Of a stretch of 49,837 nucleotides of DNA, positions 6,249-49,837 are shown one piece after another; within the stretch, counting starts at the first letter, position 1; each line of letters begins with the position of its first letter. The stretch is taken from positions 1-49,837 of IMG/VR virus record IMGVR_UViG_3300028044_001505; one strand, written 5' to 3'. The position numbers were made by a program, and so were the translations under genes. The notes below the pieces were generated by a model. That model made no database searches. It was not told where the DNA came from and worked only from the letters and a program-made list of their open reading frames with translations. Origin of the DNA: a virus.

Positions 6249-6357
6249 CGCGTCCGCACCTTGCTTGCAGTCAGCCTGCCCCAACGGGCCGCGCAACTCA
6301 ATTCAGGTCTCGCCATGGGGCTGTTCGCATAGATTCGATAGCAGTCGCAGCGGAAGA

Positions 6358-6906: not shown

Positions 6907-6915
6907 GAAACGCCA

Positions 6916-7395: not shown

Positions 7396-7822
7396 CGAGT
7401 CAGGCCGCCCGAGGCTCCGGCGATGTTTTGCCATGGGGGCGTTCTCTTTGTGGCCTGCCCCACAAGCCGCTTTGGCCTTCCCCTCTGTGCCCAGGCCGAT
7501 CGTCCCTTGGTGATTCCCTTCTCGGCCCATGGCCCCGGGCGGCAGCGGCCCACTGCAGCTGAGGGGCGCGGCCCTAACGGGTGCGCTTGTGATCTCTTCG
7601 CAGAATCTCTGAGGTTTGAGACCTCTTGCGCCAACCAGTTGGCGGAGATGCCTGCAACGCAGGGCTGTATTAGGGCCAGCTTATGGCGAAAGCCAGGCGT
7701 TTTCGCCGCCCAGTGGTCTCTGCCGCCGCTGGGCCTCTGTCATCTCCAGGGCTGCAGCAGCCGGGAGACAATGAACCTCCAGGCGCTCGCCGGGGGAGGT
7801 GTTCCCCATCCCGGAGGCCCTG
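7396..7822. other. Intergenic region without a supported gene
   Basis: Neither strand shows a reading frame with protein-like composition here. It holds an inverted repeat near 7685-7707 (GGCGAAA ... TTTCGCC with a nine-base loop) and a TTTTGCCATGG sequence near 7427 that resembles the late motif in reverse but has no minus-strand gene behind it. Confidence 0.5.
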
Positions 7823-8161
7823 ATGACCAATTCCTTCGTCTATTACGCCAAGGAGGATCCCTGGCAGGATGACCTCGACGGCAACCACGGTCTGCCGGTG
7901 CTGCTGGCTCGACGTAGCGGCGAGCCAGGCAGTGAGGCCCTCTGGAGTGGCATCCGCGGTGCCTGGGAGCCGTTCCCGGATCTCTTTGCGCGGTTGATGG
8001 GTGGTGATTGGTGGGATCAGATCCCGGAGCAGCGTGCCCGCCAGTATTTCGATGCGGCTGCTTTTGACGATGGACCGATTGAGGAGCCGCTGCCACCAGA
8101 GGAGTGGGAGCGCCTGCTGCAGGAGCACCGGCAGCGGCAGCAGGCCCAATCCCAGCTGTGA
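7823..8161 (+). CDS. Hypothetical acidic protein
   Basis: A 112-residue acidic protein rich in Trp, Asp and Gln with a Gln-rich C-terminal helix. The ATG at 7823 is well supported by GGAGG six bases upstream. No domain is recognised. It sits 40 bases ahead of the alarmone-hydrolase-like gene and probably shares its transcript. Confidence 0.6.
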   Translation: MTNSFVYYAKEDPWQDDLDGNHGLPVLLARRSGEPGSEALWSGIRGAWEPFPDLFARLMGGDWWDQIPEQRARQYFDAAAFDDGPIEEPLPPEEWERLLQEHRQRQQAQSQL

Positions 8162-8201
8162 ACTACCCGCTTGATGAGAGACACCACACCACAGGAGAGC
8201 C

Positions 8202-8900
8202 ATGACTGAGAACCAAGCGCAGCAGGCCCACAGCCAGCGCTACATCGATGCCCTGGGATGGGCTGGTGAGCTGCATCGCCGCCAGCATCGCAAGGGGAAA
8301 CCTGTGCCCTACATCTCTCACCTGATCGGCGTGAGCTCCCTGGTCTGGGAAGACGGTGGCGATGAGGACCAGGCCATCGCGGGCCTGCTCCACGACGCCA
8401 TCGAGGATGCCGGCGTGAGTGATAGCCAGATCGCCGCCCGCTTTGGTTTGCGGGTGGCCCAGATCGTCCGCGATTGCACCGACACCACCGGTGCGGTGGA
8501 AGCGGGAGGGGAGAAAGAGCCTTGGCTGCTGCGCAAGACCCGCTACATCGAGCACCTGCAGAGCGCCTCACCCGAGTCGCTACTGGTGAGCGCCGCCGAC
8601 AAGGCTCACAACGCCCGCGATATGGTGCTCGATGCCCGCAGGGACGCGGGGATGTGGACCAAGTTCAACGCTGGTCTGGAGGGCTCGGCCTGGTACCTGC
8701 TGCGGCTGCAGCAGACCTTCTCCCATCGGCTGACGGGCAGCCGCTCAGTGGAGCTGCTGGGCGAGTCCGTGCAGGAGATCCTGGCCAGCGAGACCTACCG
8801 CGCCTGCGTGCCAGAAGGCATCGCCCCAGCGGTTTGGGCTGCGGGCTACGCCGAGCGGCGTCAGGCGGCTGACCCCAGCGAAGCCGGAGCTGTCGCATGA
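8202..8900 (+). CDS. HD-domain small alarmone hydrolase-like protein (MESH1/SpoT type)
   Basis: A 232-residue HD protein with the residue set of the SpoT/MESH1 hydrolase family. His40 is in PYISHLIGV, His64-Asp65 and Glu68-Asp69 are in LLHDAIEDAG, and Asp133 and Asn137 are in SAADKAHNARD. These coordinate Mn2+ and ppGpp in characterised relatives, which remove the 3' pyrophosphate of (p)ppGpp. No synthetase, TGS or ACT domain is present, so it would be hydrolase-only. In a prophage it could lower the stringent response during infection. A GGAGAG precedes the ATG. Other HD substrates cannot be excluded. Confidence 0.75.
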   Translation: MTENQAQQAHSQRYIDALGWAGELHRRQHRKGKPVPYISHLIGVSSLVWEDGGDEDQAIAGLLHDAIEDAGVSDSQIAARFGLRVAQIVRDCTDTTGAVEAGGEKEPWLLRKTRYIEHLQSASPESLLVSAADKAHNARDMVLDARRDAGMWTKFNAGLEGSAWYLLRLQQTFSHRLTGSRSVELLGESVQEILASETYRACVPEGIAPAVWAAGYAERRQAADPSEAGAVA

Positions 8901-9018
8901 GCTCCCTGCTGGATCGCTGAGTGGAGCTTGCTCCGGGCCTCTCCAGTTTGAGGCCCTCCTGGCGTCGGGCCTCCGCTGGGATCGGTCCCGTCGCTGCGCC
9001 GCTCTCGGCGCCGAGTCC

Positions 9019-9342
9019 ATGGCCATGCTGTCCGCCGCTTCCTCGCCGTTCTGCCGCCCAGAAGAGGATCCGTTTCTGCTGCTCGAGTCCACGCTGCGCT
9101 CAGTGGAGGAGATCCTGGTGCGCCGGCGGGGGCTGCCGCTGCGCCGCACCTGGATCGAGCAGCCCTATGGAGAAGAGGAGATCACCCTGCTGGAGGAGGA
9201 GGTGCTTCCGGCGATCCAGCAGTGTCTGGCACGGGTGGATGAGCTGGATGAGCGGCTGCTGGCCCAGCAGGAGCTGCTGCAGCGCTGCCAGCTGGAGGCT
9301 GATCGTGAGGCGCTGGCTGAGCTCAGGCTGCAGATGGCCTGA
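9019..9342 (+). CDS. Small coiled-coil protein
   Basis: A 107-residue protein whose second half is a long Leu/Glu/Gln helix (LLEEEVLPAIQQCLARVDEL, then further heptads), predicting a coiled coil. No catalytic motif is seen. An ATG at 9025 is an equally good start. It is the last gene of the plus-strand block before the virion genes begin on the other strand. Confidence 0.55.
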   Translation: MAMLSAASSPFCRPEEDPFLLLESTLRSVEEILVRRRGLPLRRTWIEQPYGEEEITLLEEEVLPAIQQCLARVDELDERLLAQQELLQRCQLEADREALAELRLQMA

Positions 9343-37188: not shown

Positions 37189-37566
37189 ATGGCCTCCTCC
37201 CCCAGCGAACACGAGATCCAGCAGCGCATCCGCCTGGCCTGCGGCCGCGGGGCGGTGCGGCTCTGGCGCAACAACACCGGTGCCCTGGTCGACCAGCAGG
37301 GACGCTTCGTGCGCTTTGGGCTGTGCAAGGGCAGCAGCGACCTGATCGGCCTGCGCTCGCTGGAGATCACGCCTGAGCTGGTCGGCCTGCGGCTCGCCCA
37401 GTTCGTCGCTCTGGAGATCAAGACAGCCCAGGGCGTGCTCAGCCCTGAGCAGCGGGCGTTCCTGCGCCTCGTGCAGGAGCTCGGTGGCGTGGCAGCGGTC
37501 TGCCGCTCTGTGGAGGAAGCCGAGCAGCTGCTTGGCAGCCCGAGGCAAGTGCTGCTGGGACACTGA
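37189..37566 (+). CDS. VRR-NUC domain nuclease
   Basis: A 125-residue stand-alone VRR-NUC protein. SEHEIQQRIRLACGRGAVRLWRNN, GSSDLIGL (catalytic Asp) and VALEIKTAQG (Glu-x-Lys) followed by FLRLVQELGGVAAVCRS match the phage branch of the PD-(D/E)XK superfamily, thought to cleave branched DNA. It is three codons behind the toxin gene's end region, and the next small gene starts on its stop codon. Confidence 0.85.
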   Translation: MASSPSEHEIQQRIRLACGRGAVRLWRNNTGALVDQQGRFVRFGLCKGSSDLIGLRSLEITPELVGLRLAQFVALEIKTAQGVLSPEQRAFLRLVQELGGVAAVCRSVEEAEQLLGSPRQVLLGH

Positions 37567-37730
37567 TGGATCCGGCAGAACTGCAGCAGCGGCTGAGGCG
37601 TCTCGCCAAGGCCAACCCAGGCGAGCACCCCTACACCATTGCTCTGAGATTGCAGGCAGAGACAGGGAAGGTGATCACTGGGCAGCTTGCCAAGCAGATC
37701 CTGCAGAAGCTCGGACAGGATCAGACCTGA
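37566..37730 (+). CDS. Small helical protein
   Basis: A 54-residue protein (MDPAELQQRLRRLAKANPG, later TGQLAKQILQKLGQ) with two helices that resemble a minimal helix-turn-helix. Its ATG overlaps the VRR-NUC stop by one base (TGATG), so it is probably translated. No family is recognised. Confidence 0.6.
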   Translation: MDPAELQQRLRRLAKANPGEHPYTIALRLQAETGKVITGQLAKQILQKLGQDQT

Positions 37731-37777
37731 TATGCCAGGAGGTGTCAGGAAGTGACTAGGAGTGCCAAGTTTGCCGT

Positions 37778-38530
37778 ATGGTTCGGGAAATCCCATTCAG
37801 GATCCTGAACGTGGCCATCACCTACGCGGAGCTGCTTGAGCGCCAGGAGGAGAACCGCGCAGCGTTCGGTCGGATGCTGCTGAACTGGCGAAGAACCAAC
37901 GGCTGGACCCAGTACACCGCCTGCAGCTGGGCGGAAGAGGCCGGCTTCGATGCGATCTCTTACGGCAACCTCTCGGTGATCGAGCAGGGCAAGGCCGGCG
38001 AGCTGCGCCAGAAGGCCTTCTGGCAGTTGGGCGAGCTGAACCGCCGCATCGCCGAGCAGGACTGGGGCCCGGTCAAGAGTCAGGCGATCAAGGACAAGCT
38101 CGAGAACGCCATCCCGCTGGGTGACGACGAGTGCCCGGCCTGGACGCCCCTGGAACTCTGGGCCTGCTACTGCGGCCTGCGTGACGTGCCGGAGGCCTTC
38201 CGCACGACGCCGGCACCGACCGTTGGCCAGCGCAAAGCGACGGAGCTCTCGGCCAAGTGGCGCAACCAGATGCGCCGGGTGGTCGATGAATGCGGCCTTG
38301 AGCCCAGCGACGCCCTGAATTCCCTGGCGGTCGAGGCCAGCGAAGAGCACCGCAAGCGCTTCTTTGCCGTGCTCACGGGCTTCGGCGACTACAAGCCGGA
38401 GGAGCTGGCCCCGCTGTGGATCGAGGGCGACCTCTACCTGCCCAAGCGCTGGCTGGACCAGTGGGAGGCCGCCAACAGAAAGGGCAGCAAGCCCAGCGGC
38501 CGCAAAGGAAAGAAGCCAGTCACGGCCTGA
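37778..38530 (+). CDS. Phage regulator-like protein, unknown family
   Basis: A 250-residue protein. The N-terminal third has an HTH/Cro-like feel (GRMLLNWRRTNGWTQYTACS, SYGNLSVIEQGKAG), where XRE-type domains keep the Gln/Thr turn and the Glu-Gln-Gly end. The rest is helical and ends in a Lys/Gly-rich tail (KGSKPSGRKGKKP). A repeated motif AGGAG/AGTGAC precedes the gene. Its stop codon abuts the regulatory box at 38531-38564, so it is a candidate regulator of that box. Confidence 0.5.
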   Translation: MVREIPFRILNVAITYAELLERQEENRAAFGRMLLNWRRTNGWTQYTACSWAEEAGFDAISYGNLSVIEQGKAGELRQKAFWQLGELNRRIAEQDWGPVKSQAIKDKLENAIPLGDDECPAWTPLELWACYCGLRDVPEAFRTTPAPTVGQRKATELSAKWRNQMRRVVDECGLEPSDALNSLAVEASEEHRKRFFAVLTGFGDYKPEELAPLWIEGDLYLPKRWLDQWEAANRKGSKPSGRKGKKPVTA

Positions 38531-38564
38531 TGGCTAGGAATTAACAGCCGCTGTGAGTGCGGCT
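38531..38564 (+). promoter_or_regulatory. 34-base regulatory box, copy B (plus strand)
   Basis: It matches the minus-strand box at 30969-31002 at 31 of 34 positions. It contains AGGAATTAACAGCC and a perfect dyad AGCCGC-N7-GCGGCT. AGAGCCCTAAGAT follows, with TAAGAT as a possible -10. It lies 57 bases before the ATG at 38621 and begins at the first base after the upstream stop codon. Confidence 0.7.
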
Positions 38565-38620
38565 TCCAGCAAAGAGCCCTAAGATCCGGACCAGCGGGCA
38601 ACCGCCCGATTCGATCCGTC

Positions 38621-39391
38621 ATGGCTCCACCCCTCAGGCCTCCAGAGGCCGACATTGAGGCGCCGCCGGCCGTCCCGGCCGACGCCACACCCGAGCAACA
38701 GCTCACCCATGCCCTGGCCAGCTTTCAGGCCGAGGTGTCCCCCATCACCGCTGCTGACCTGGCGGAGGTGGTTCACTCAGCCCGCCCCGCCTTCCGCCGC
38801 GGGATCGGCTGGTCCGCTCACCTGCGCGAGCAGCAAGGGCGCTCCCGGCTACAGGTCACGGTGATGCACGTCGCCGGGGCCGAGCTTTGCAGCGAGTCCT
38901 GGGCTGATGAGGCAAGCGATCTGGCCGAAACCACCGGCCTGATGTTGGCCATGCTGCTGGGCATTCCTGTGTCTGCCCAGGCTCGGGCTGTACAGCCCTA
39001 TGCAGCCCCTGAAAAGCAGACAGCCGAAGAGCCTGAAGTAGATCCTAAGCAGCAGGCTTGCCTCGATCAACAAGCCGACGATCCTGCTGCTGAGGAGCCA
39101 GTCCCCTTGGCTCACACCAGCGATGACGGCACTTCTGCAGACGGTGATCCAGCACTGGCTCCCCTCACCCCTGAGGAGGTCAGCGAGGTCCGCCGCCGTG
39201 TGCTCGACCTGTCCCAGGCCGCCCGTCAGGAGCTGACCAAGGCCTTCCGCGAGCACTTCCAGGTGCCGCGCAATGCCCGCTCCATCGGTGATCGCATCAC
39301 CCAGCGCCAGCACAGCGACTTCATCGCGCTCTTCCTCGAAGAAGCGCAGGGTCAGGTGCAGCCCGAGCCTGCTGCGGAGCCAAGCCCATGA
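38621..39391 (+). CDS. ERF-like single-strand annealing protein (tentative)
   Basis: A 256-residue protein. The first 120 residues (THALASFQAEVSPITAADLA, SRLQVTVMHVAGAELCSES, then ETTGLMLAMLLGIP) resemble a reduced ERF-type annealing core. A Gln/Glu/Pro-rich linker follows. The C-terminal 60 residues (RRRVLDLSQAARQELTKAFR, IGDRITQRQHSDFIALFL) closely resemble the tail of the Rad52-like protein at 46343-47320. The operon also carries an SSB-like gene, supporting a recombination role. Four-base overlap with the next gene. Confidence 0.5.
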   Translation: MAPPLRPPEADIEAPPAVPADATPEQQLTHALASFQAEVSPITAADLAEVVHSARPAFRRGIGWSAHLREQQGRSRLQVTVMHVAGAELCSESWADEASDLAETTGLMLAMLLGIPVSAQARAVQPYAAPEKQTAEEPEVDPKQQACLDQQADDPAAEEPVPLAHTSDDGTSADGDPALAPLTPEEVSEVRRRVLDLSQAARQELTKAFREHFQVPRNARSIGDRITQRQHSDFIALFLEEAQGQVQPEPAAEPSP

Positions 39392-39642
39392 GCGAGAGCC
39401 ATCGCCCCCGGCCGCCACGCCGCTACGGCGAGCAGCCCCGTTCTCTGGCTGGTCGCCATTTCATCCAGACCCAGGTGCGCACCGACGTCTACCTGCGGGT
39501 GCGCGAGCTGATGGAGGCCCGCAACCTCTCGGCCAGCGGAGCGGTGCATCACCTGCTGCGCGAGCGATTTGGTCTGCCGCCCCTTCCCCCGTTCGATCAA
39601 CAGCCCAGTTCCACCGTTCACCCCGATTCAGCCCATGGCTAA
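39388..39642 (+). CDS. Small ribbon-helix-helix-like protein
   Basis: An 84-residue protein. IQTQVRTDVYLRVRELMEAR followed by LSASGAVHHLLRERFG has the strand-helix-helix pattern of CopG/Arc-like proteins, flanked by Pro/Arg-rich ends. It starts within the previous gene's stop (ATGA) and overlaps the next gene by eight bases. It may regulate the recombination operon. Confidence 0.55.
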   Translation: MSESHRPRPPRRYGEQPRSLAGRHFIQTQVRTDVYLRVRELMEARNLSASGAVHHLLRERFGLPPLPPFDQQPSSTVHPDSAHG

Positions 39643-40222
39643 AGACATCTTCCGCACGCCCCTCGCCGAAGTGCGCTGGGCCCACCTGATCACCCCAAGG
39701 CACCAGCTCGACAAGAGCAAACCCAAGGCCTGGACTGCCGATCTGCTGCTGGCCAATAGCGACGAGAAGGCCCAGTCCTTCCTGTTGGCGATGGAGGACC
39801 AGTTCATCGCTCTGCACGGCAGCCGCAAGCGCCGTGCCGAGAAGGGCTTCCCCTGGAAGCCCGACAGGGAGAAGCCCAGCGAGATCACCGTGGTGCGCTT
39901 CAAGGTGCCGCAGTTCCAGCGGCGCGATGGCTCTCTTTCTGAGGGGCCCCGCATCGTCGATGCCAGGAAGCAGCCCTGGGACGGGGCCGCCATCGGCAAC
40001 GGATCCAAGGTGGTTGTCGCCTTCGACATCTACGACTGGGACGGCGAAAACGGCTGCGGCATGACCTTTCAGCCGCGTGCCGTTCAAGTGGTCGACTTTG
40101 TGCCCTACGAGCAGGTCGACCCCACCGACGGCTTTGAAGAAGTCGAGGGCTACACCACCACCGGCGGTGGCGCCGGTGATTGGAGCACTGGCGCTGCCGA
40201 CGACAGCGAGGAGTTGTTCTGA
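39635..40222 (+). CDS. SSB-like/DUF2815-like protein
   Basis: A 195-residue protein starting MAKDIFRTPLAEVRWAHLIT with strands throughout (SKVVVAFDIYDWDGENGCG, FQPRAVQVVDF) and an acidic C-terminal tail ending DDSEELF. The acidic tail with terminal Phe is the usual partner-binding tail of T7 gp2.5-like and other phage single-strand-binding proteins. The position next to recombination genes agrees. Identification is by layout. One-base overlap with the next gene. Confidence 0.65.
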   Translation: MAKDIFRTPLAEVRWAHLITPRHQLDKSKPKAWTADLLLANSDEKAQSFLLAMEDQFIALHGSRKRRAEKGFPWKPDREKPSEITVVRFKVPQFQRRDGSLSEGPRIVDARKQPWDGAAIGNGSKVVVAFDIYDWDGENGCGMTFQPRAVQVVDFVPYEQVDPTDGFEEVEGYTTTGGGAGDWSTGAADDSEELF

Positions 40223-40530
40223 TGCCGCTCGATCGTCAGGGCATCAACTCCGGGGCCTGGAGCGGCAGGCCCCCGCACCGGCCCGGTCCCCAGCTGCCTG
40301 CTTTCTGCCGCACCCGCCGGCCCACCACCGTCGCGGTCACGGCCTCCAGCCTGGCTTGCCTGCGCGGGCTGGTGCTGCTGGGGCTGGCATTTCAGCTCAG
40401 CACCCTGCTGCTCGTGCTCTCCGGGCCCGTGCCGCCGCGGCCGATGGCCAGCACCAACACCGTCTTCCGCCCCGATGCCGGCACGGATGCCGGTGAGGTT
40501 CACCCCGTCACACCGCGTTTAGACCGATGA
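40222..40530 (+). CDS. Small membrane protein
   Basis: A 102-residue protein with an Arg/Pro-rich N-terminus, one hydrophobic segment (LRGLVLLGLAFQLSTLLLVL) and a polar C-terminus. TGATG coupling to the SSB-like gene and a four-base overlap with the BRO gene place it firmly in the operon. Function unknown. Confidence 0.6.
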   Translation: MPLDRQGINSGAWSGRPPHRPGPQLPAFCRTRRPTTVAVTASSLACLRGLVLLGLAFQLSTLLLVLSGPVPPRPMASTNTVFRPDAGTDAGEVHPVTPRLDR

Positions 40531-41312
40531 ACAACACGACTTCAAGCGCCCTGGTTCCATTCGACTTCGAAGGCAGCCAGATCCGCGTCTTCACCGATGA
40601 GCAGGGTGATCCCTGGTTTGTCGCCGCAGATGTCTGCTCAACCCTCGGCATCGGCAACGTCAGCCAGGCACTCAGCCGTCTGGACGGGGACGAGAAGACC
40701 CTCATTTCAAATGAGGGTGCCCCAGCAGGCGGGCCGCCGAGCCTGAACCTGATCAATGAACCTGGGCTCTACACCTTGGTCCTCGGCAGCCGCAAGCCAG
40801 AGGCCAAGCGCTTCAAGCGCTGGGTGACGCACGAGGTTCTGCCTGCGATCCGCCGGACTGGGCGCTACGCATTACCAGGGCTCGCGCCTGCGCCGGCATC
40901 CTTGCCCTCAGACAAGCAAGACAGCGTCGGCGCCCTGTTGCTGATTGGTCAGGCCGTCGCGCAGGTCCCCGGCGTGAAACCCGGCATCGCCATGGCCGCG
41001 ACGCTCACCTGCATTCAGGAAAACACCGGCCTGGCGACCGAAACCCTGCGCCGAGCCCTGCCGGCTAAGGAGGACCCGATCTGCTCACTCAATGCCACGG
41101 GACTCGGGCAGCTGTTGGGGATGAAGGCCAAGGACACCAACCAACACCTCGCAGCCTGCGGGCTGCAGATCCGCAATCAGCGGGGGGAATGGGAGCTCAC
41201 CAATGCCGGCCTGCATTGGGCAGAAGCCCTGCCCTATTGCCGCGGCGGCCACAGCGGGTACCAGATCCTCTGGAATCCCGCCGTGGTCAGCGTGCTCCGG
41301 GAGCTGGCCTGA
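40527..41312 (+). CDS. BRO-N domain antirepressor-like protein
   Basis: A 261-residue protein. The N-terminal 110 residues are a BRO-N domain: IRVFTDEQGDPWFVAADVC, LDGDEKTLIS, NLINEPGLYTLVLGSRKPEA and RWVTHEVLPAIRRTGRYAL. The C-terminal half has a KilA-C/phage-regulator-like part (LGQLLGMKAKDTNQHLAACG). Such proteins are typical phage antirepressors. It starts within the previous gene and ends on the start of a small HTH gene. Confidence 0.85.
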   Translation: MNNTTSSALVPFDFEGSQIRVFTDEQGDPWFVAADVCSTLGIGNVSQALSRLDGDEKTLISNEGAPAGGPPSLNLINEPGLYTLVLGSRKPEAKRFKRWVTHEVLPAIRRTGRYALPGLAPAPASLPSDKQDSVGALLLIGQAVAQVPGVKPGIAMAATLTCIQENTGLATETLRRALPAKEDPICSLNATGLGQLLGMKAKDTNQHLAACGLQIRNQRGEWELTNAGLHWAEALPYCRGGHSGYQILWNPAVVSVLRELA

Positions 41313-41557
41313 TGGAGAACCAGACGACCCCACCCCCATCCGGACGTCACCGCGTCTGGGTCACAACGGCAGAAGCCTGTGCAGCACTTGGGATGAGCCG
41401 CGAAACCCTCCGCCAGCTGCGGCTGCGGGGGGTGCTATCCCCAGGCAAGCACTACCGCCGCTGGGGCTGCACCCAGGGCCGGGGCCCCCTGCAGTGGCAC
41501 CTGGAAAACGTGGAGGCCACCATCACGGGGTGGAGTCGGCGGCACCTGCAGCACTGA
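41312..41557 (+). CDS. Small HTH (excisionase/MerR-like) protein
   Basis: An 81-residue protein with VWVTTAEACAALGMSRETLR as a winged-helix recognition region and a Trp-rich C-terminus (CTQGRGPLQWHLENV). It resembles excisionase-type DNA-binding proteins; being near the integrase, it is a candidate Xis. TGATG coupling to the BRO gene. Confidence 0.6.
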   Translation: MENQTTPPPSGRHRVWVTTAEACAALGMSRETLRQLRLRGVLSPGKHYRRWGCTQGRGPLQWHLENVEATITGWSRRHLQH

Positions 41558-41572
41558 AAGCCACAACTCGGA

Positions 41573-41592
41573 CGTAGAGTCATGTCTCTACG
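41573..41592. promoter_or_regulatory. Palindrome at VapBC-type operon start
   Basis: CGTAGAG and CTCTACG arms flank a TCATGT spacer. The ATG at 41582 lies in the spacer, so either the antitoxin starts further downstream or the operator covers the start codon. A related GTCTCTAC sequence recurs after the toxin gene at 42360. Confidence 0.5.
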
Positions 41593-41917
41593 GGTGGCCG
41601 TGAACGGTCGAAGGCGTTCCTTGACACAGTCCAGGCCTCAAGATCGTTCGGCTGACGCCAGCCAGCACTTCCCGCAGGCGATCCGCCGCTGGGGGAACAG
41701 CCTGGCGGTCAGACTCCCGGCCGATTGCCTGCGTCAGGCCGGACTGCAGGAAGGCGATCAGATCGACATCGTCGTTGGTCCTGATGGCCGCCTGAGCCTG
41801 GAGCCTCTGCGCAAGCTGGATCGCTCTGCCCTGGCCGCTGATCTGCGTCAGCTTCAGGCCACCATGCCTCTCACCCCTTCGGTGATCGAGGACTGCCGCG
41901 GCGGTGAACGCTGGTGA
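41582..41917 (+). CDS. AbrB/VapB-type antitoxin
   Basis: A protein of up to 111 residues. The AbrB/MazE swapped-hairpin core reads QAIRRWGNSLAVRLP, AGLQEGDQIDIVV and GRLSLEPL. The first 30 residues are not typical, and the true start may be a GTG at 41594 or 41600. The acidic C-terminus (SVIEDCRGGERW) would bind the toxin. It ends 13 bases before the PIN toxin. Confidence 0.75.
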   Translation: MSLRVAVNGRRRSLTQSRPQDRSADASQHFPQAIRRWGNSLAVRLPADCLRQAGLQEGDQIDIVVGPDGRLSLEPLRKLDRSALAADLRQLQATMPLTPSVIEDCRGGERW

Positions 41918-41930
41918 CGCACACCCATCG

Positions 41931-42353
41931 ATGATCTACCTCGACACCAGCGTGGTGGTGGCTCTGCTGACCCCGGAAGAGCGCAGTGCCCAAGCGCTCG
42001 ACTGGTTTGGGCAATCTCGGGACCCCCTGATCAGCAGCGACTGGCTGATCACCGAAACCCACAGCGCCCTGGGAATCAAGCAGCGCCACCACGGCCTCAG
42101 TTCTGAGGCGCGCCAGGCGGCTGGGGAGCAGTTCGAGCGCCTGCTGCAGGGCGGAGTGGAACTGCGCTCGCTCGATCGCGACCGCTTTCGCCAGGCAGCC
42201 GAGCTGCTCCATGATCCAGCACTCGGTCTACGGGCCGGTGACGCCTTGCATCTGGCCGTAGCGCTGCACAGCCGCTGCACCCGGCTGGCCAGCTTCGATG
42301 TGCGAATGCAGCAAGCCGCAAAGGTCCTGGGCCTGACGCCGGCGCTGAACTGA
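41931..42353 (+). CDS. VapC-type PIN-domain toxin
   Basis: A 140-residue PIN ribonuclease with the acidic quartet in place: MIYLDTSVVVAL (Asp4), DWLITETHSAL (Glu), GLRAGDALHLA (Asp) and LASFDVRM (Asp). The family cleaves structured RNA, often tRNA. It forms a pair with the AbrB-type antitoxin, the usual arrangement for addiction modules near an integrase. Confidence 0.85.
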   Translation: MIYLDTSVVVALLTPEERSAQALDWFGQSRDPLISSDWLITETHSALGIKQRHHGLSSEARQAAGEQFERLLQGGVELRSLDRDRFRQAAELLHDPALGLRAGDALHLAVALHSRCTRLASFDVRMQQAAKVLGLTPALN

Positions 42354-42524
42354 GACGCGTCTCTACAGCTGGCGTGAGCAACCATCACCGCGACCCACTG
42401 AGCTCACAAGCCAGCCACCTCTGCATGGCGATGGAGTAGCGCCCGGGCCAGCCTCAGAAACCCAACCAAGACAGTCGATGAATATCTGGCAACGCTTGAG
42501 CAGGTTCTCGCAGGCCCTGCGGCA

Positions 42525-43802
42525 TTACGCCGCTGAGCTCTGAGCTCGGTGGCCATGGGCCAGCCGTTGCTCCGCCTTGGCGAAGGCGTCATCCACAACG
42601 TCATCCCCGCACCAGCGACTGTAGGCAGCCAGGTGGGTTTCTACTGAGTGACCCATGGCTGCAGCAACCACCTTGGGCGGAAGCTCGCAAGTGACATGAG
42701 CGCGGTGGGCATAACCATGGCGGCAGGAATAGAGGACCAGCTTTTCGCCCTTCTCTTCGTACTCCCGCCGTAGCTGTTGCCAGAGCGGTCGACGCCGCAT
42801 GTAAGTCCCAAGGTCCTCAGCCCCATGACCTGGTCGCATCGGCGGCATACGGTCAGGTCGAAATGCTTTCTCGAGCTGCCATTCCTGTGCCCAGTTGTCG
42901 CAAGGCAACAGTCGCAGGACTCTTGAGCGGGTGCGCCCCCGACTGGAAACTTTCTGATAGGTCGTCCAGAGCTGCCCTTTTTGAATCTCCAGGTGTTGCA
43001 GTTCTTCTGGACGGAGGCCGTAGGCAGCCATCAGCTGAAAGGCCAATCGCCAGCGCGGATCGGATATTGCCTCTACCAGGTCGAGCACGTGGCTGACATC
43101 AATCGGAGTTGTGACCCCTCGTTCATCACGCTTTCGACCAACGTAGATCGAGAGATCAAGTGGGGGTGCCCAGGATGACGGCAGCCGCTCCGAATCGACG
43201 CCCCAACGCAAAAGCGCTGCTGTGAATTGAACCTGCAGCTGACGGCCACGAGATCCTGGTCTGTCCTTCCATGACTCGATCACGGCCTCCAGAAGTTGCT
43301 TGGATGAGGTCGGTCGCCGCTTGCCACCAATGGCATCTAGAATCACAGACATTCGCCGCCAATACATATCATCCCAGGTGCTCTGCTTGATGGCTCCACT
43401 ACTCAGCTTGTGATCCTTGAAGCCCTGAATCAGCTGTGACCAATTGATTGCCTCACTAACGGTGACTCCATTGGAGCTTGATTCCGTTGAAGGAACTCGC
43501 GCATGAGTTTCGATAGCGAGGTCAAGGGGGACACCATCATTGAAATCAGCATGGATAGCAAGCACTGCGGTATGAATCGCCTGCCTATCGGATGCGGACC
43601 AATCGAAGGGGAGCACCCGCTGCTGACGGGCACCCCCCGCGGCTGAAGCGGAGACATTGAGGAGAACACGTCCGCGCATTTCTGACACAGTCCAGCCACT
43701 ACGAGGCCCGAGGTCTGATGTCAACGAAAGCCGCAGAGCTGCTACCCAGCCACGGTCTTTCGCTGCTCGTGCTTGTCGGGGGGCGGGGGTGGTCTTCGGC
43801 AC
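42525..43802 (-). CDS. int: Tyrosine recombinase (prophage integrase)
   Basis: A 425-residue integrase. The catalytic domain shows AAYGLRPEELQHL (first Arg), a Lys-containing beta hairpin region, SCRHGYAHRAHV (His-x-x-Arg type box), AAMGHSVETHLAAYSRW (His and nucleophilic Tyr). The N-terminal half contains a core-binding helical region (LLEAVIESWKDRP). It lies about 180 bases from the tRNA-Pro attachment core and reads away from it. Tandem 12-base repeats in the gap are likely arm sites. A truncated relative lies at 47313-48128. Confidence 0.9.
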   Translation of the reverse strand: MPKTTPAPRQARAAKDRGWVAALRLSLTSDLGPRSGWTVSEMRGRVLLNVSASAAGGARQQRVLPFDWSASDRQAIHTAVLAIHADFNDGVPLDLAIETHARVPSTESSSNGVTVSEAINWSQLIQGFKDHKLSSGAIKQSTWDDMYWRRMSVILDAIGGKRRPTSSKQLLEAVIESWKDRPGSRGRQLQVQFTAALLRWGVDSERLPSSWAPPLDLSIYVGRKRDERGVTTPIDVSHVLDLVEAISDPRWRLAFQLMAAYGLRPEELQHLEIQKGQLWTTYQKVSSRGRTRSRVLRLLPCDNWAQEWQLEKAFRPDRMPPMRPGHGAEDLGTYMRRRPLWQQLRREYEEKGEKLVLYSCRHGYAHRAHVTCELPPKVVAAAMGHSVETHLAAYSRWCGDDVVDDAFAKAEQRLAHGHRAQSSAA

Positions 43803-43835
43803 GGCACCAGGGAATCAGGCACACACGACACCCCT

Positions 43836-43859
43836 TGCAAGAGAATCTGCAAGAGAATC
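43836..43859. repeat. Two tandem 12-base repeats between integrase and att core
   Basis: TGCAAGAGAATC occurs twice head-to-tail (43836-43847 and 43848-43859) just upstream of the integrase gene. Directly repeated short sites beside an attachment core are typical integrase arm-binding sites. Confidence 0.55.
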
Positions 43860-43985
43860 GCCCCTTCAGCTTGGCACGCCCGGCCAGAGACGGCCACAGC
43901 CTGCAAGCCTAAAAGCCAGTAACAGCACGGGGCTCAGGGGCAGAATCCAGCTGCGGCAGTCGATCTGACAGACTCTATTTCAAGG

Positions 43986-44029
43986 GCTTTGGGAGCACTA
44001 GGTCGCAGGTTCGAATCCTGTCGCCCCGA
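43986..44029 (+). other. attR: 3' part of tRNA-Pro(UGG)
   Basis: The sequence runs from the anticodon loop (CTTTGGGAGC, anticodon TGG) through the variable loop, the T arm (GGTTCGAATCC) and the acceptor strand (CGCCCCGA). The 5' half does not match a tRNA: the bases before GCTTTGGG cannot complete the anticodon stem. It is therefore an attachment-core fragment left by integration, not a functional gene. The matching intact tRNA should be at the left end of the element. Confidence 0.85.
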
Positions 44030-44052
44030 TTGACTTTTCAGGGATTGGCCAG

Positions 44053-44140
44053 GGGAGATGGGAGAGATTTGGGGAGAGATTCCCTCTCCCGTCCTCGCCC
44101 GGTGGTCTCTCCCGCCCGAAGTGGGAGAGGGTCTCTCCCC
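44053..44140. repeat. Cluster of GGGAGAG/CTCTCCC repeats after attR
   Basis: At least six copies of GGGAGA(G) or its complement CTCTCCC follow the tRNA fragment and can form several alternative hairpins. They may be a terminator region of the tRNA, host repeat DNA or protein-binding sites. Confidence 0.5.
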
Positions 44141-44228
44141 TTCACCCTCAGGATGGAGTCCTCAACACCGCTCCAACGACTGACGGACTCCAGGATGGAG
44201 GTGCTGATCCTCCAAGGGCTCTGAGGCC

Positions 44229-44615
44229 GTGTCCAGCCGTCTGATCGTCTCCGAAAACCGTGACGACCCGGGCAACCCGCTGGTGCTCGGCGGTGAGGCC
44301 ATCGATGCCGCAGCGCAGGACCCAGTCGCCATCGGCAAGCTGATGGTCGACCAGGCCTGGGCGGAGGGAGGCGATCCCACCGGTGGAGGCCTGTACTACG
44401 AGCGGAACAGCAACCAGCAACGACGGCTGCAGGCCTTTGAGACGGGCAGCGAGGACTTCATGACCGGTGGCTGGGTGCGGGTGCTCGCCAGCGCCGAGCA
44501 GGTGCGCAAGGAGCGGGCCGGCATGGAGCAGGCCGCCAAGGCAGGCCTGGTGAAGATCCACGGCACCCACCGGGGCGTTCTGCTGGTGGAGTTCCTCGAC
44601 GTTCACTGGGGCTGA
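44229..44615 (+). CDS. Hypothetical protein
   Basis: A 128-residue protein starting at a GTG at 44229. The pattern is compact and protein-like (IGKLMVDQAWAEGGDPTGGG, then GWVRVLASAEQVRKERAGME and a C-terminal VLLVEFLDVHW), but no family is recognised. It is the first gene beyond the attachment site and could be host or part of the older remnant. Confidence 0.55.
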   Translation: MSSRLIVSENRDDPGNPLVLGGEAIDAAAQDPVAIGKLMVDQAWAEGGDPTGGGLYYERNSNQQRRLQAFETGSEDFMTGGWVRVLASAEQVRKERAGMEQAAKAGLVKIHGTHRGVLLVEFLDVHWG

Positions 44616-45049
44616 GCAACCGCCGCAGGGCTCCGGTCGGCGACGGCCGTCCTGAGCGTGCCACGGCTGTGCCGTGGCGTGCATCGGCCAGCCGCCGCCG
44701 CCCTCCGCTCCGGGGCCGGTGTTGGGGTTGCTGGCAGGGCCGCTCTCCCGCGGCTGCGGTGGCCGGGCGGCTGCCAGCCGGCGGGGTGTTGGGGTGAGGC
44801 CCCGGATTTCCTCGCGCGGCTGCGCGGGCGGTGGCTTTTTTGTGCTGAATTTGGCTGCATTGGTTATCAAGCTGCCTAGCTCATCGTGGGTGGGTGCGTT
44901 TCGGGCAGATCGCTTGCCCCGCGGCCGCCCTGCTCGCTCATTAGTGTGTTTGTACTGCTAGAATAAGAGTCGCGCCAAAGGCCACGAGCCCATCGCCTGC
45001 GGCAATGAAATTCTCGGACAACTTGCCCCGTTCGTTTGCTCTGTAGCCC
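44616..45049. other. Intergenic region with hairpins and promoter-like sequence
   Basis: No gene is supported. GCCACGGC-TGT-GCCGTGGC forms a perfect eight-base hairpin near 44659-44677. A CGCGC/GCGCG dyad near 44813-44826 is followed by a T-run at 44836-44841, a possible terminator. TAGAAT at 44959-44964 in an AT-richer stretch may be the -10 of the next gene. Confidence 0.45.
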
Positions 45050-45571
45050 ATGAGTCTGTCCTCTGCTGCAGTGGCCCAGGCCGCTGCATTGCCTCTTCCT
45101 GGTCTCCTGCCGCCGCCGGTTGGAGTTCATCGCTCGGTCGTCATCGTCGCTGCCGGTGGCCGTGATCTCGTCTGGCCCCAAGAGCGCATCGCCTCCGCCC
45201 TCCTGCAGCGCAGTTGCGGTCGTCCGGTCCATCTGCTGCTTCACGGCGGTGCCCGTGGCGCTGATCAGGCCATCGGCCGTGCTGCCCATCAGCTGGGTTG
45301 GAGGGTCCAGTCCCTTACCGCCGAGTGGGGTCGCTATGGCCGCAGCGCCGGGCCGATCCGCAATCGCCGCCTCCTCGAGCAGGCCCTGGTGGAAGCCCAG
45401 GCCCATACCTCCCCGGCCTTCTCCGCCTCGGTGCTGGTGATCGCCTTTCCCGGTGGCCCCGGCACGGCCTCGCTGGTGCAGCAGGCCCGCCGCTGCTCCG
45501 CCCGTTCGCCGGTGCCGGTGGTGGTGATGGAAGTGCCGCCGCCGTTCTCACCGGAGCCCCTCGCCGCCTGA
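45050..45571 (+). CDS. SLOG/DUF2493-family protein
   Basis: A 173-residue protein with the Rossmann-like SLOG pattern. RSVVIVAAGGRD opens the fold, LLLHGGARGADQAIGRAAHQ is the glycine-rich nucleotide loop, and a GRSAGPIRNRRLLEQ segment and a VLVIAFPGGPGTASLVQQA strand-loop close the site. The family binds nucleotides or sugar-nucleotides and is common in phages and defence islands. It leads a short plus-strand operon with Gp157- and Rad52-like genes. Confidence 0.75.
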   Translation: MSLSSAAVAQAAALPLPGLLPPPVGVHRSVVIVAAGGRDLVWPQERIASALLQRSCGRPVHLLLHGGARGADQAIGRAAHQLGWRVQSLTAEWGRYGRSAGPIRNRRLLEQALVEAQAHTSPAFSASVLVIAFPGGPGTASLVQQARRCSARSPVPVVVMEVPPPFSPEPLAA

Positions 45572-45620
45572 GCGGCAATCGCCGTCCCGTTCTTCTCGTT
45601 CCCCTCCGCTCCACGTCCCC

Positions 45621-46238
45621 ATGTCTGTTCTCACCGCCCTCGCCGCTCCTCTCTCCGCGGTTCTCCCACAAGTCGCCGGGCCGGCCTGCTCCCTGCAGCG
45701 CACCGGCTCCCTCTGGCAGCTGGGCATCGAGGCCCAGGAGCTCACCACCGCCATCGCTCAGCTGGCTGAGCAGCTGGAGGCCGACGACGACACCCGCGCC
45801 CAGGCCCTCGCCGAGCTCGAGGCTGCCCTGCTGGCCGAGGAGGGCAACAAGCAGGCCCTTGCCGCCAAGGCCGATGCCACCTGTTGGGTGATCGAGCACC
45901 TCCGCGGCCAGGCGGCCTACCGCCAGCAGCAGGCCAAGCGCCTCACCGAGCTGTCGCGCTCCGATGCCTCCCGGGCCGATGCCCTGGAGGACTCCCTGGT
46001 CCTGGTCCTCACCCGCCTGCAGCCCACCGCCACCCGCTTCTCCTTCCCGAATCACGAACTCACCTCCCGTAAGTCCCAGGCCGTCGAAATCGACGACGAG
46101 GACGCCCTCGATCCCCAGTGGCTGAGCTTCACCACCACCAGCAAGCCGGACAAGGCCGCCATCAAGGAAGCCCTCAAAGCAGGCAGAGAGATCACCGGCG
46201 TCCAGCTGATCTCCCGCCGCTCCTGGCGCATCCACTAG
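45621..46238 (+). CDS. Siphovirus Gp157-like protein
   Basis: A 205-residue protein with the Gp157 layout. A long helical N-terminal region (ELTTAIAQLAEQLEADDD, LAAKADATCWVIEHLRGQAA) leads to a C-terminal core with TRFSFPNHELTSRKSQAVEI, an acidic DDEDALDPQWLS segment and KAAIKEALKAGREITGVQLI. The family often lies beside single-strand annealing genes in phages, as here. Confidence 0.75.
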   Translation: MSVLTALAAPLSAVLPQVAGPACSLQRTGSLWQLGIEAQELTTAIAQLAEQLEADDDTRAQALAELEAALLAEEGNKQALAAKADATCWVIEHLRGQAAYRQQQAKRLTELSRSDASRADALEDSLVLVLTRLQPTATRFSFPNHELTSRKSQAVEIDDEDALDPQWLSFTTTSKPDKAAIKEALKAGREITGVQLISRRSWRIH

Positions 46239-46253
46239 GGGCCAGAGGCCCCT
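46237..46253 (+). terminator. GC-rich hairpin after Gp157-like gene
   Basis: AGGGGCC and GGCCCCT arms with an AGA loop start inside the stop codon. The arms are identical to those after the capsid gene at 17330-17346. There is no U-tract. Confidence 0.4.
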
Positions 46254-46342
46254 CACAAATGGGGTTTCGGTGGTGTAGCCGGGGCCCCCTCCTTGACCCA
46301 ATCCCTTCCGCAGCTCACCTCGCTCCATCGCTTCCCATCGCC

Positions 46343-47320
46343 ATGACCGTCGCCGCTCCTTCCTCCAACGGGGCCAGCACCATCAGCCGCGCCGCAGCTC
46401 CTCGATCCAGCCAAAGGCCGCCATCGGCCCTGGAGTTGATCCGCACCGCTGATCGAGTGGAGGGCCCTCCAGCAGCAGCCATCGAATCCGTCACGACAGT
46501 GCAGGCCAACCAGGCCCAGCCCAGCGGCTTCTCCCCCGAGCAGCTCGCTGCCCTCGCCGCCCCCCTCAATCGGGCCAACGTCCGCCAGCGCGAGCAGGGC
46601 CGCGGGAAGGTGGCCTACCTCGAAGGCTGGCAAGTCATCGCGGAGGCCAACCGCATCTTTGGCTTTGACGGCTGGCAGCGGCAGACCATCGCCATGCGCT
46701 GCGTCGCCCAGGCCGAACGACCCATCGGCAGGGAGCAGAAGTCCGGCTGGGGCGTCACCTACACCGCCCGGGTGCGCGTCACCGTTACCGCCGGAAGCCT
46801 GATTCCCCTGGTCCGGGAGGGCAGCGGCGCTGGCCATGGCATCGATGTGGACCTCGGCCAGGCCCACGAGTCCGCTCTCAAGGAAGCCGAGACCGACGCC
46901 ATGAAGCGGGCCTTGATGACCTTTGGCAATCCCTTCGGCCTCGCGTTGTACGACAAGCGCCAGCGGGAGGTAACCAGCTCAGCGGCACCAGAACGTCCAA
47001 CGGCCCACCCCCGTCAGGCAGAGCCAGCGCCGCAGCACCAGGAAAGGTCAGCGACAGCAGCAGAGCACCCGGCTCAGGATGCAGCCCCTGCATCCCAGCA
47101 GGATCCGGGGCTGCTTCCCCTTGATACGGACACGATCCGCCAGCTGCACGGCGCCATCCGCCAGCTGCCTCGCCCACTGCTGGAGGCCCTCACCCAGGGC
47201 TTCCGCAAGCGCTTCTCCATCCCGGAAGGGGCCGCAACGATCGCCGATCGAATCGTGCAGAAGCGTCACCACGATTGGATCGAGGCGTTTCTGGTGCAGC
47301 ACTCAGGCTTGACGAGCTGA
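46343..47320 (+). CDS. Rad52-like single-strand annealing protein
   Basis: A 325-residue protein. Residues about 65-210 fit the Rad52/22 fold: NVRQREQGRGKVAYLEGW, ANRIFGFDGWQRQTI, VTYTARVRVTV, GHGIDVDLGQAHESALKEAE and TDAMKRALMTFGNPFGLALY. A disordered linker leads to a C-terminal helical domain (RPLLEALTQGFRKRFSIPEG, IVQKRHHDWIEAFL) shared with the protein at 38621-39391. It anneals single-strand DNA in phage recombination. Its 3' end meets a truncated integrase. Confidence 0.85.
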   Translation: MTVAAPSSNGASTISRAAAPRSSQRPPSALELIRTADRVEGPPAAAIESVTTVQANQAQPSGFSPEQLAALAAPLNRANVRQREQGRGKVAYLEGWQVIAEANRIFGFDGWQRQTIAMRCVAQAERPIGREQKSGWGVTYTARVRVTVTAGSLIPLVREGSGAGHGIDVDLGQAHESALKEAETDAMKRALMTFGNPFGLALYDKRQREVTSSAAPERPTAHPRQAEPAPQHQERSATAAEHPAQDAAPASQQDPGLLPLDTDTIRQLHGAIRQLPRPLLEALTQGFRKRFSIPEGAATIADRIVQKRHHDWIEAFLVQHSGLTS

Positions 47321-48128
47321 CAGCAGGCCTGCCGATTCAGCTTCGCTGCTGGATGCCTGCCTGCGGGGCTGGGCGCCTGGGAGCCGGGCCCGGCAGATCC
47401 GGGCGCAGTCGCTGGCGCAGTTCCTGCGGCATTGCGTGGAGCGCGAAAAATTCCCCGATAGCTGGCGGCCACCGCTCGATCTGCGACCGCACATCGGTGT
47501 CCCGGCCGCTGAGACGGCTGCCGGCCACCGCAAGGGTGATCCCTTCACCGATCTGCAGGTGCTGCAGCTGCTCGATTCCCTGCCCACCGATCAACCTGGC
47601 CGCCGCTGGGCTGATGCGCTGCGGCTGCTGGCGGAGCTGGGCCTGCGGCCGATCGAATTGCAGCACCTGGGGGTGCGCAACGATCCGGGCAGCGGCCAAC
47701 CGCTGTGGTGGTGCACCTACCGCAAGCGCAGCGGCGGCGGCATGACCGCGCCGCGCTGGGTGCATCCGCTGCCGCTGACGGATTGGGACGGCCGCCGGCA
47801 GGACTGGCAATTGCTGGAGCGCTGGCGCTCGGGTGCCATTCAGCTTCCGCCCCTGGGCGGCGGGCCGGGAGCGGCCGATGCGATCGGCACCTATCTCAAG
47901 CGCCAGCGGTGCTGGATGGAATTGCGTGAACGAATGGCAGCACGAGGAGAGCGCGCCGTGCCGTACTCGTTCCGGCATGGCTACAGCCTCCGAGGCCATC
48001 AGCTGGGGATCGACCCTGGGAGCATGGCCCTGAGCATGGGGCACTCGCTGGAGGTGCACCTGCGCAGCTATCCATGGGCCTCGGGCCAGGGCGCGGCCGC
48101 AGCGTTTGCGCGGGCGTTGGAGGGATGA
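47313..48128 (+). pseudogene. Truncated tyrosine integrase
   Basis: The open frame aligns with the catalytic half and part of the core-binding domain of the intact integrase: LLDACLRGWAPGSRARQ and SWRPPLDL versus LLEAVIESWKDRPGSRGRQ and SWAPPLDL. It keeps GLRPIELQHLG, SFRHGYSLRGHQ, SMGHSLEVHLRSYPWA. The N-terminal domain is missing, no ATG precedes the homology, and the frame begins inside the Rad52 stop region, indicating a deletion junction. A GTG at 47436 could make a shorter product. It is a relic of an older element. Confidence 0.75.
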
Positions 48129-48562
48129 GGTACGACAGGAAATGGCGATGAGGAGTTGTAGGCATGCCCGACGAGCTTTGCTCACTGGGCCGGGGCGGGA
48201 CACCCCTGAGCGGTGCTGCGCTGAGCCGCGTTCGCCCGCGGCTGCAGGTGATCAGGGTCGGTGGTGATCACGCCGTGCAGGGTGCCGGGCTGTCCGTGCC
48301 TGCTGAAGCAACAGCCCGGCCAGGAGCAGGCCCCAGGAGAACGGTCCCGTGGGCCCTCAGCGGATCAAGAGTGAGCTTTCGCCCCCGAAAAACCGCTGCA
48401 ACTGCTGCCAGCGCAGCTCGGAAACCTGGTCGGTTTCATTCGTCAGGGCAGGCCGCCTTGGTGGACGGGTCCGGCCGAGCGGACTGGCTAGCTGCCAGTT
48501 GGGGGTCCTGCGGCAAGAGGAACGCCAAGACACAGGACCAACGAGGCGGAAGCCCAACCCAA
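48129..48562. other. Intergenic region, no supported gene
   Basis: A frame reading through on the plus strand continues as antisense of the DUF3122 gene and has an Arg/Ser/Gly-rich, non-protein-like composition. No tRNA fragment like the attachment core was seen here. Confidence 0.45.
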
Positions 48563-49108
48563 TCAGGTAGCAAGGTTCGGTGGCAACTCGTGGAGCGCTT
48601 GCACGACTTCAGGTTGCAGCATGACCATGATCGTGCCCTCTGGATTGTTGGTCGGCACCTCCAGCTGCAGCGGCAGCACTTCGCTGGGCCTGGGGTCCAG
48701 GGCGTTGGCGTCGAACTGGGCCGATGACTCGGGGACCACCTCCTCCCCTTGTCGCACCAGTTCCTCACTGCGGTTCGGCAGCTCCCAGGCGCCGCCGAGG
48801 CCATCGCTCAAGAGCAGTGGGCTTTGGTGATCGACTATCTGCCCGGGTGAGCGGGCAGTCAGGCGCACTCGCCAGCCGTCTGGGTAGGCGGGATCAGGTT
48901 GCTCGAACAGGGTCAGGCCCCAGGAACGACCTGAGGAATCCGTGAGGGTCCAGCGTTGTGGATCGGCTGCTGCCTGGGCCTGGAGCGGTAGAAGCATCAG
49001 GGTCAGGGCAAGCAGAACAGCGGCGAAGACGGGCCGCCAGTTGGGTCGATGCAGCCGGTGCGCAGCTGGGCGGAAACCCGCACCAGCCCCTTGAGAAAGA
49101 ATGCTCAT
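48563..49108 (-). CDS. DUF3122 family secreted protein
   Basis: A 181-residue protein with an export signal ([21 protein letters not shown]) and the DUF3122 pattern: [65 protein letters not shown] and LPLQLEVP. The family is known almost only from cyanobacteria; its function is unknown. It is host chromosomal DNA and reads divergently from psbA. Confidence 0.85.
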
Positions 49109-49240
49109 AACGTCTCTCGCGTCATAGAAGGCTTCAACGCTACTGTTTTATTGGGAAGAGCGGGTGCTCGGCTGTCCATCCACCACGATGGGCCGCCCTC
49201 GCCTTCGCAGCTCTCCCCAGTCCCGTCTTCATTCCTCGCC
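49109..49240 (+). promoter_or_regulatory. Divergent psbA/DUF3122 promoter region
   Basis: The 132-base gap holds the promoters of both genes. An AT-richer stretch (CTACTGTTTTATTGGG near 49139-49154) is the most likely psbA promoter area, but I cannot assign -10 and -35 boxes with confidence. Confidence 0.4.
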
Positions 49241-49837
49241 ATGACGACAACCATCCTCAAGCGTTCCTGGGGCAACCCATGGAACAGCTTCAAGGACTGG
49301 GTGACCAGCACCGACAACCGCCTCTACGTGGGCTGGTTCGGCGTGCTGATGATCCCCACCCTGCTGGTGGCCACCTGCTGTTTCGTGATCGCCTTCATTG
49401 GCGCCCCGCCCGTCGACATCGACGGCATCCGCGAACCCGTCTCCGGCGGCCTCCTCTACGGCAACAACATCATCACCGCCGCGGTGGTGCCCAGCTCCAA
49501 CGCCATCGGCCTGCACTTCTACCCGATCTGGGCCGCCTCCAGCCTCGATGAATGGCTCTACAACGGCGGCCCCTACCAGCTGATCATCTTCCACTTCCTC
49601 ATCGGCATCTTCTGCTGGATGGGCCGTGAATGGGAACTCAGCTACCGGCTAGGGATGCGTCCCTGGATCGCCGTGGCCTATTCCGCTCCGGTGGCTGCCG
49701 CCACCGCCGTGCTGCTGGTGTACGCCATCGGCCAGGGTTCCTTCTCCGACCCCATGCCCCTGGGCATCTCCGGCACCTTCAACTTCATGCTGGTGCTCCA
49801 GGCCGAGCACAACGTGCTCATGCATCCCTTCCACATG
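49241..49837 (+). CDS. psbA: Photosystem II D1 protein, 5' part
   Basis: The first 199 codons of D1, truncated by the window edge. Core motifs are present: [58 protein letters not shown] and [14 protein letters not shown]. Tyr161 (TyrZ) and Asp170, a ligand of the Mn cluster, are kept. Position 130 is Glu, as in high-light D1 forms. Unusual residues next to TyrZ are Ala162 and Pro171, where Pro and Gly are the common residues as I recall. It acts in the thylakoid membrane as a reaction-centre subunit. Confidence 0.95.

Follow-up and report, generated by a model that had tools for sequence, protein, structure and literature searches.

Organization of the locus

The DNA analysed here (the window; locus L086 in our comparisons) is a stretch of 49,837 nucleotides, positions 1 to 49,837 of the IMG/VR virus record IMGVR_UViG_3300028044_001505. 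We characterized a run of four genes at 45,050–48,128, encoding a SLOG protein, a Gp157-like protein, a Rad52-like annealase and a truncated integrase, which a sequence-only reading had taken for an older phage remnant lying in host DNA beyond the right attachment site (attR) of a prophage. Window positions 37436–49837 were identical to contig C62 of Cyanobium sp. Cruz-8D1 (genome G001), and positions 1–36753 matched contig C32 of the same strain, reversed, with 0 mismatches; the 682 bases between the two matches are bridged by the window alone. Open reading frames, Pfam and PHROG matches and integrase identity, at levels well outside chance, confirmed the presence of the four genes beyond the attachment (att) site (Table 1).

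Table 1. Features around the tRNA-Pro(TGG) fragment of the window.
Feature	Position	Strand	Basis
Intact tyrosine integrase of element A, right end	42525-43802	-	phrog_1, E 5.3e-16; -844 from core, 5′ side, as at other loci
att core, 3′ 44 bp of tRNA-Pro(TGG); right end of A, predicted left end of B	43986-44029	+	comparison with intact tRNA-Pro
Conserved spacer (element DNA) from core to ORFX	44030-44228		alike directly 3′ of other cores, e.g. L100, 95.7% over 211 bp
ORFX, 128 aa, first left-end gene	44229-44615	+	no Pfam or PHROG family
Conserved module leader	44616-45049	+	in copies lacking ORFX, similarity starts at 44608-44630
SLOG (YAcAr-type), 173 aa	45050-45571	+	Pfam PF10686, E 2e-6
Gp157, 205 aa	45621-46238	+	Pfam Sipho_Gp157 PF05565, E 7.6e-24
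Rad52-type annealase, complete, 325 aa	46343-47320	+	Pfam Rad52_Rad22 PF04098, E 4.1e-43
Joint of module and integrase relic	47304-47327		identical in window and L090
Decapitated integrase, keeping the catalytic domain whole and the core-binding domain in its distal part	47328-48128	+	homology to full-length integrases
DNA also following the intact integrase of L087	48129-48184		48102-48184, 78%
Segment before host DNA	48185-48533		no match among loci compared
Host DNA: DUF3122 (48563-49108, -), psbA (from 49242, +)	48534-49837		collinear with G021, G006, G039, G026

The Gp157 protein scored 85.0 bits against a gathering threshold of 28.6, its PHROG label being Mu Gam-like end protection, and the Rad52 protein 147.4 bits against 20.3; an annealing function is predicted for the latter from its family. 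The SLOG/YAcAr match (PF10686) reached 28.0 bits, just below the cut-off of 28.2 bits. The Rad52 gene forms part of a longer listed frame, 46118–47320.

The core at 43986–44029 is the sole one in the window at up to 3 mismatches, and an intact tRNA-Pro(TGG) lies at about C32:60202, past window position 1. Since the two are linked through the window, they bound one element of 67,478 bp, measured from the intact gene to the window fragment and hereafter called element A. It reads, in order, tRNA-Pro, ORFX-SLOG-Gp157-Rad52, a BREX-type stretch, phage genes lying within the window (tail, head, portal, terminase, primase and antirepressor), integrase and tRNA fragment. This is the organization of a tRNA-targeted prophage or island, with an intact tRNA gene and a same-oriented 3′ fragment at its ends, an internal tyrosine integrase, and structural and packaging genes.

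The DNA beyond the core is in the register of an element's left end

The genes to the right of the core follow the spacing found at other cores. ORFX lies at +412 from the window core, SLOG at +1300, Gp157 at +1919 and Rad52 at +2821, the usual register being mostly about +410, about +1300, about +1900 and about +2800, respectively. In a set of 26 cores, drawn from loci picked because they carry such genes, module genes stood on the 3′ side at 18, all pointing away from the core. Integrases stood on the 5′ side, at about −770 and also pointing away, and at 9 of the 26 cores a module lay behind the integrase on that side, instead or in addition; one SLOG piece (L308) is directed towards its core.

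The nature of such flanks is apparent at two further loci. On Cruz-8D1 contig C31 the order is core, SLOG-Gp157-Rad52 and, 4 kb further, tail and head genes; the module there thus forms a prophage's left end. In Synechococcus sp. SynAce01, genes for tail and head follow the intact tRNA-Pro, and such genes are also present past a second core 83.7 kb away. These layouts indicate that the DNA beyond a core can be another element. Element A has the same set of genes after its own tRNA-Pro, and in the window a left end stands in register at the core that it shares with A, as expected of a tandem array. We conclude that the DNA to the right of the core is, judged by its register, the left end of a second tandem element (element B), collapsed to about 4.2 kb, and not host DNA as had been claimed; element DNA extends to about 48184, and homology to host loci begins at 48534–48544. 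The proposal of a second, decayed phage-type element beyond attR, with a decapitated integrase, was thus borne out.

A resident origin of the four genes, as host genes next to psbA with no tie to mobile elements, is hardly credible. They do lie beyond attR and adjoin the DUF3122-psbA pair, but tblastn detected no module protein near DUF3122-psbA in G021, G006, G026 or G039, many genomes have these genes at att cores, and module-type Rad52 was found in just 2 of 244 genomes drawn from the cyanobacterial phylum (with no more than nine candidates scored per genome).

The host boundary itself was placed by comparison with these four genomes, which carry a DUF3122-psbA locus of the window type. Homology starts at 48534 in G006 and G039, at 48544 in G021 and at about 48570 in G026. 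For the suggested comparison with an empty site, the related psbA loci were aligned; the DNA to the left of DUF3122 was unlike among the loci compared, so that none of them provided a clean empty site. This DNA resembles, in G006, that found downstream of Rad52 elsewhere. The second tRNA or core fragment anticipated near 48.1–48.5 kb was not found, as neither a tRNA-Pro core nor a convincing tRNA piece occurs there; Rfam matches in this interval were all far below threshold, and comparison with 59 tRNAs gave only matches of 10–16 bp.

The region next to psbA had been proposed to be a site of repeated invasion. Of this, the repetition stands and the site moves: the layouts above show repeated invasion of tRNA-Pro, and in none of 13 loci with an intact tRNA-Pro, that of G021 included, was psbA found. 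Psb­A was rejected as the landing site on these grounds. G017 has a more distant DUF3122-psbA pair (DUF3122 53%), some 12.6 kb past the final core of its array, which was retained as weak support, and repeated invasion next to psbA is possible.

A headless integrase follows a whole Rad52 gene

The frame of the integrase relic is open over 47313–48128 (271 codons), its first standard start is the GTG at 47436, and 230 residues follow from there. Homology to full-length integrases starts at about 47328, 8 nt past the Rad52 stop, so that the relic begins at residue ~150 of 416. The part retained presumably comprises the distal core-binding region and the catalytic domain. Pfam gave no family match for the relic, and it matched the PHROG integrase family phrog_1 at E 2.3e-4. 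Its alignment with the intact window integrase (42% identity, E 3.9e-37) had been said to span the core-binding and catalytic parts; this held for the whole catalytic domain, and for the core-binding domain in its distal part only. Identity to integrases of other genomes was 92–94%. The relic belongs to a lineage different from that of the intact window integrase and is not a copy of it.

Among 29 related loci, 19 had a full-length frame, one had the head but was cut by a contig end, one had the head with a frameshift, and eight, including the window's own and L090, were headless. The full-length relatives carry about 150 additional N-terminal residues, and 16 of the 19 have a tRNA-Pro core no more than 250 bp upstream. 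None of the intact integrases at these loci starts at the equivalent of GTG 47436. A full-length homologue naturally starting there would have spoken against truncation; with no such gene present, and with longer relatives at hand, the possibility that the relic is a natural short integrase was rejected. The relic lacks a complete core-binding domain and the N-terminal arm, and is truly decapitated, having lost its head together with the att core that normally precedes it. R257, K283, R366, H367, H389 and Y398 (L087 numbering), which we take to be catalytic, are invariant in the alignment, relics included.

The start of the relic at the Rad52 stop had been read as the mark of a deletion. A head was indeed lost and homology resumes 8 nt past the stop, but the stop is not the scar. 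Rad52 homologues part ways at the same C-terminal point and continue into short variable tails, and module copies mostly cease to be alike at 47302–47308. Rad52 is therefore whole, and its stop is the usual edge of the module, where the similarity normally ends anyway.

The joint occurs twice in one strain and its copies are mosaic

The junction of module and relic was present at two places, both in Cruz-8D1, on C62 and on C31 (98% over 389 bp). It was found in no other of 300 family genomes searched (77 with any match; no more than two candidates scored per genome). The window and C31 copies are identical over 47287–47392, the joint included, and they are sisters in the gene tree. Further on they diverge, being only 82–83% identical from 47763 to 48023, and over 47415–47588 the window relic is 99–100% identical to a full-length gene. 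Compared over this patchwork, the relic copies are mosaics with full-length alleles.

The nonsynonymous (dN) and synonymous (dS) divergences of the relic pair were 0.044 and 0.33 (dN/dS 0.13). Taken at face value, this ratio, the frame open in both joint copies and the invariant catalytic residues kept would suit a headless integrase that is maintained as a small protein, for example as a regulator or a dominant-negative partner of full-length integrases. We consider this very improbable. As the copies are mosaics, their ratio is neither a measure of selection on the headless form nor a sign of its maintenance, and it was set aside as proof of function; it also exceeds the 0.06–0.07 found among three full-length integrase genes. 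No ribosome-binding sequence was seen by eye before GTG 47436, and the joint was found in a single strain.

A comparable case was seen in G017 at 931–934 kb, where a broken module is followed by a C-terminal integrase piece of the same orientation. Another integrase fragment (residues 321–397) lies just upstream of the intact tRNA-Pro of Cruz-8D1 (L258:10681–10913, on C32). On the right flank of the second joint (L090:13585–18418, on C31), short stretches resemble, with their order reversed, the DNA that lies downstream of tRNA-Pro in G012 and G021; this points to a rearrangement of the array.

Proposed history of element B

We regard it as probable that two related phage-type elements integrated serially at the 3′ end of tRNA-Pro(TGG), and that B then collapsed, its left module, itself whole and of the phage annealing type, becoming fused to a headless integrase. 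After the successive integrations, an illegitimate deletion or recombination would have joined the Rad52 end of B to codon ~150 of the integrase of another array member, with the loss of an att core, of all else in B and of the first third of that integrase gene. The joint probably arose, then, by deletion between array members. It may have reached the second locus by recombination within the strain, to which the tract of identity and the mosaicism point. Proteins for annealing (Rad52-type) and for end protection (Gam-like) would be expected to promote exchange of this kind. B should be older than A, because in serial integration the latest arrival comes to lie adjacent to the tRNA; the description of the remnant as older stands by this logic alone. 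The relic presumably no longer recombines att sites, so that B could not leave by itself.

Several observations weigh against this history. No second core within 3 mismatches occurs in the window, and B is therefore unclosed on the right and classed as a remnant only. B has no surviving late genes and no intact integrase of its own, which a member of a tandem array should possess, and 48185–48533 is without a match among the loci compared. The relic also faces the wrong way for the right-end integrase of B itself. An integrase in this direction could come from an inverted neighbour, since arrays can hold cores of both orientations, as in G017, but neither such an inverted or other array source nor the intermediate was seen. 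Finally, the order of C32, C62 and C31 depends on a draft assembly together with the record of the window.

Distribution of the module

Gp157 matches were found in 21 of the 42 genomes searched as the genus of Cruz-8D1. This strain had 13, two of which are parts of one copy, giving about 12 copies, on C15, C20, C21 (two), C22, C23, C31 (two), C32, C38 (two) and C62; the other 20 positive genomes had 1 to 8 matches each. In the 16 genomes in which cores were also searched, 16 of 55 Gp157 copies lay within 5 kb of a core, compared with 0.45 expected, and 14 of 43 cores had a Gp157 copy within that distance. In the Gp157 tree the Cruz-8D1 copies were scattered (10 changes for 12 rows, one of them a duplicate, against a shuffled mean of 10.6), as they were in the Rad52 tree (8 changes for 11 rows, shuffled mean 9.6). 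This scatter suggests that most module copies of the strain arrived separately.

These data bear on the possibility that SLOG-Gp157-Rad52 is an independently spreading cassette that recombined beside an integrase relic, no large element B ever having been present. The similarity of copies starts sharply at 44608–44630, ends at the module edge noted above and gives way to differing flanks; 39 of the 55 Gp157 copies have no core within 5 kb; the Cruz-8D1 copies are scattered in the gene trees; and the joint copies share a tract with flanks unlike on both sides. An independent cassette would nevertheless not need to stand in exact att register with ORFX and the conserved spacer, as the window unit does, and neither terminal repeats nor a recombinase of its own were found (ends inspected by eye only). 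We therefore hold this explanation to be unlikely, and the collapse of a tandem element remains the preferred account of the window. It is doubtful, though conceivable, that the module is a self-promoting annealing cassette, a short recombination operon of phage origin, which spreads among Cyanobium, seeds copies near tRNA-Pro arrays and elsewhere, and through its annealing activity drives the mosaicism that makes the joint and copies it to a second locus.

Plasmid and phage records were rejected as a source of the module, as just three plasmid records gave weak Gp157 matches and 18 phage records partial Rad52 matches. The nearest phage record was a Microcystis phage Rad52, 68% identical over 46% of the query. 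A literature search joining Gp157, Rad52 and cyanobacteria found no paper.

Other features of the elements

Element A encodes BREX-type proteins between its left-end module and its late genes, namely a PglXI methyltransferase and BrxC/PglY (L350:2346–5153 and 5389–9120, both on the minus strand, corresponding to C32 at about 42.3–49.1 kb). A 676-aa neighbour (L349:17494–19524, minus strand) looked PglZ-like by eye. Window positions 38621–39391 encode a 256-aa protein with no Pfam or PHROG family, the C-terminal part of which is common to the module Rad52 (31–49%, in short stretches). In G017, a 101.6-kb run (C1:864959–966591; L250–L255) holds four tRNA-Pro cores, three in plus and one in minus orientation, with modules, integrases and broken phage genes. 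Two records titled as a Bifidobacterium breve metagenome-assembled genome (L097 and L104) contain cyanobacterial element DNA (integrases 60–61% identical, and ORFX) and are probably mislabelled or from a mixed bin.

Relation to known systems

The arrangement resembles the tRNA islands and tandem arrays described for Islander, with an intact tRNA at one end, a 3′ fragment at the other, an internal tyrosine integrase and several members per tRNA; there, each array member is required to have its own integrase and fragment, and tandems of two or more are tabulated at 125 (PMC4383910). Element B, lacking a closing fragment as well as a working integrase, is a remnant that a search of this kind would miss. 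In SynAce01, the published prophage phiSynAce1 (65,524–73,790; PMC6337551) lies inside an island bounded by tRNA-Pro and a fragment, at 11,186 and 94,892, and the relevant passages of that report give no tRNA-Pro boundary for it. The island as delimited here spans 83.7 kb (chromosome 11,186–94,920; L256, L257), and late genes continue beyond the second core.

With phage annealing modules, the window module shares Rad52-type and Gp157/Gam-like proteins (Pfam Rad52_Rad22 and Sipho_Gp157); it differs in being tied to SLOG, often to ORFX and an att end, and in its many chromosomal copies. In picocyanobacteria, tycheposons are mobile islands that sit at tRNA genes and have tyrosine recombinases. 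Element A, unlike these, carries head, portal, terminase and tail genes.

The remnant is thus known in kind: a collapsed tandem element at a tRNA hotspot, and an informative, if fairly ordinary, trace of repeated insertion and decay. The multicopy annealing module is a striking and unusual by-product. For the record itself, the boundary is corrected, as DNA that seemed to enter the host at 44 kb continues for 4 kb into a second element. The locus marks tRNA-Pro(TGG) as a heavily used prophage landing site in freshwater picocyanobacteria and shows how members of an array are reduced to fused remnants. Whether arrays of this kind are shaped by phage annealing genes can be tested with the multicopy SLOG-Gp157-Rad52 operon.

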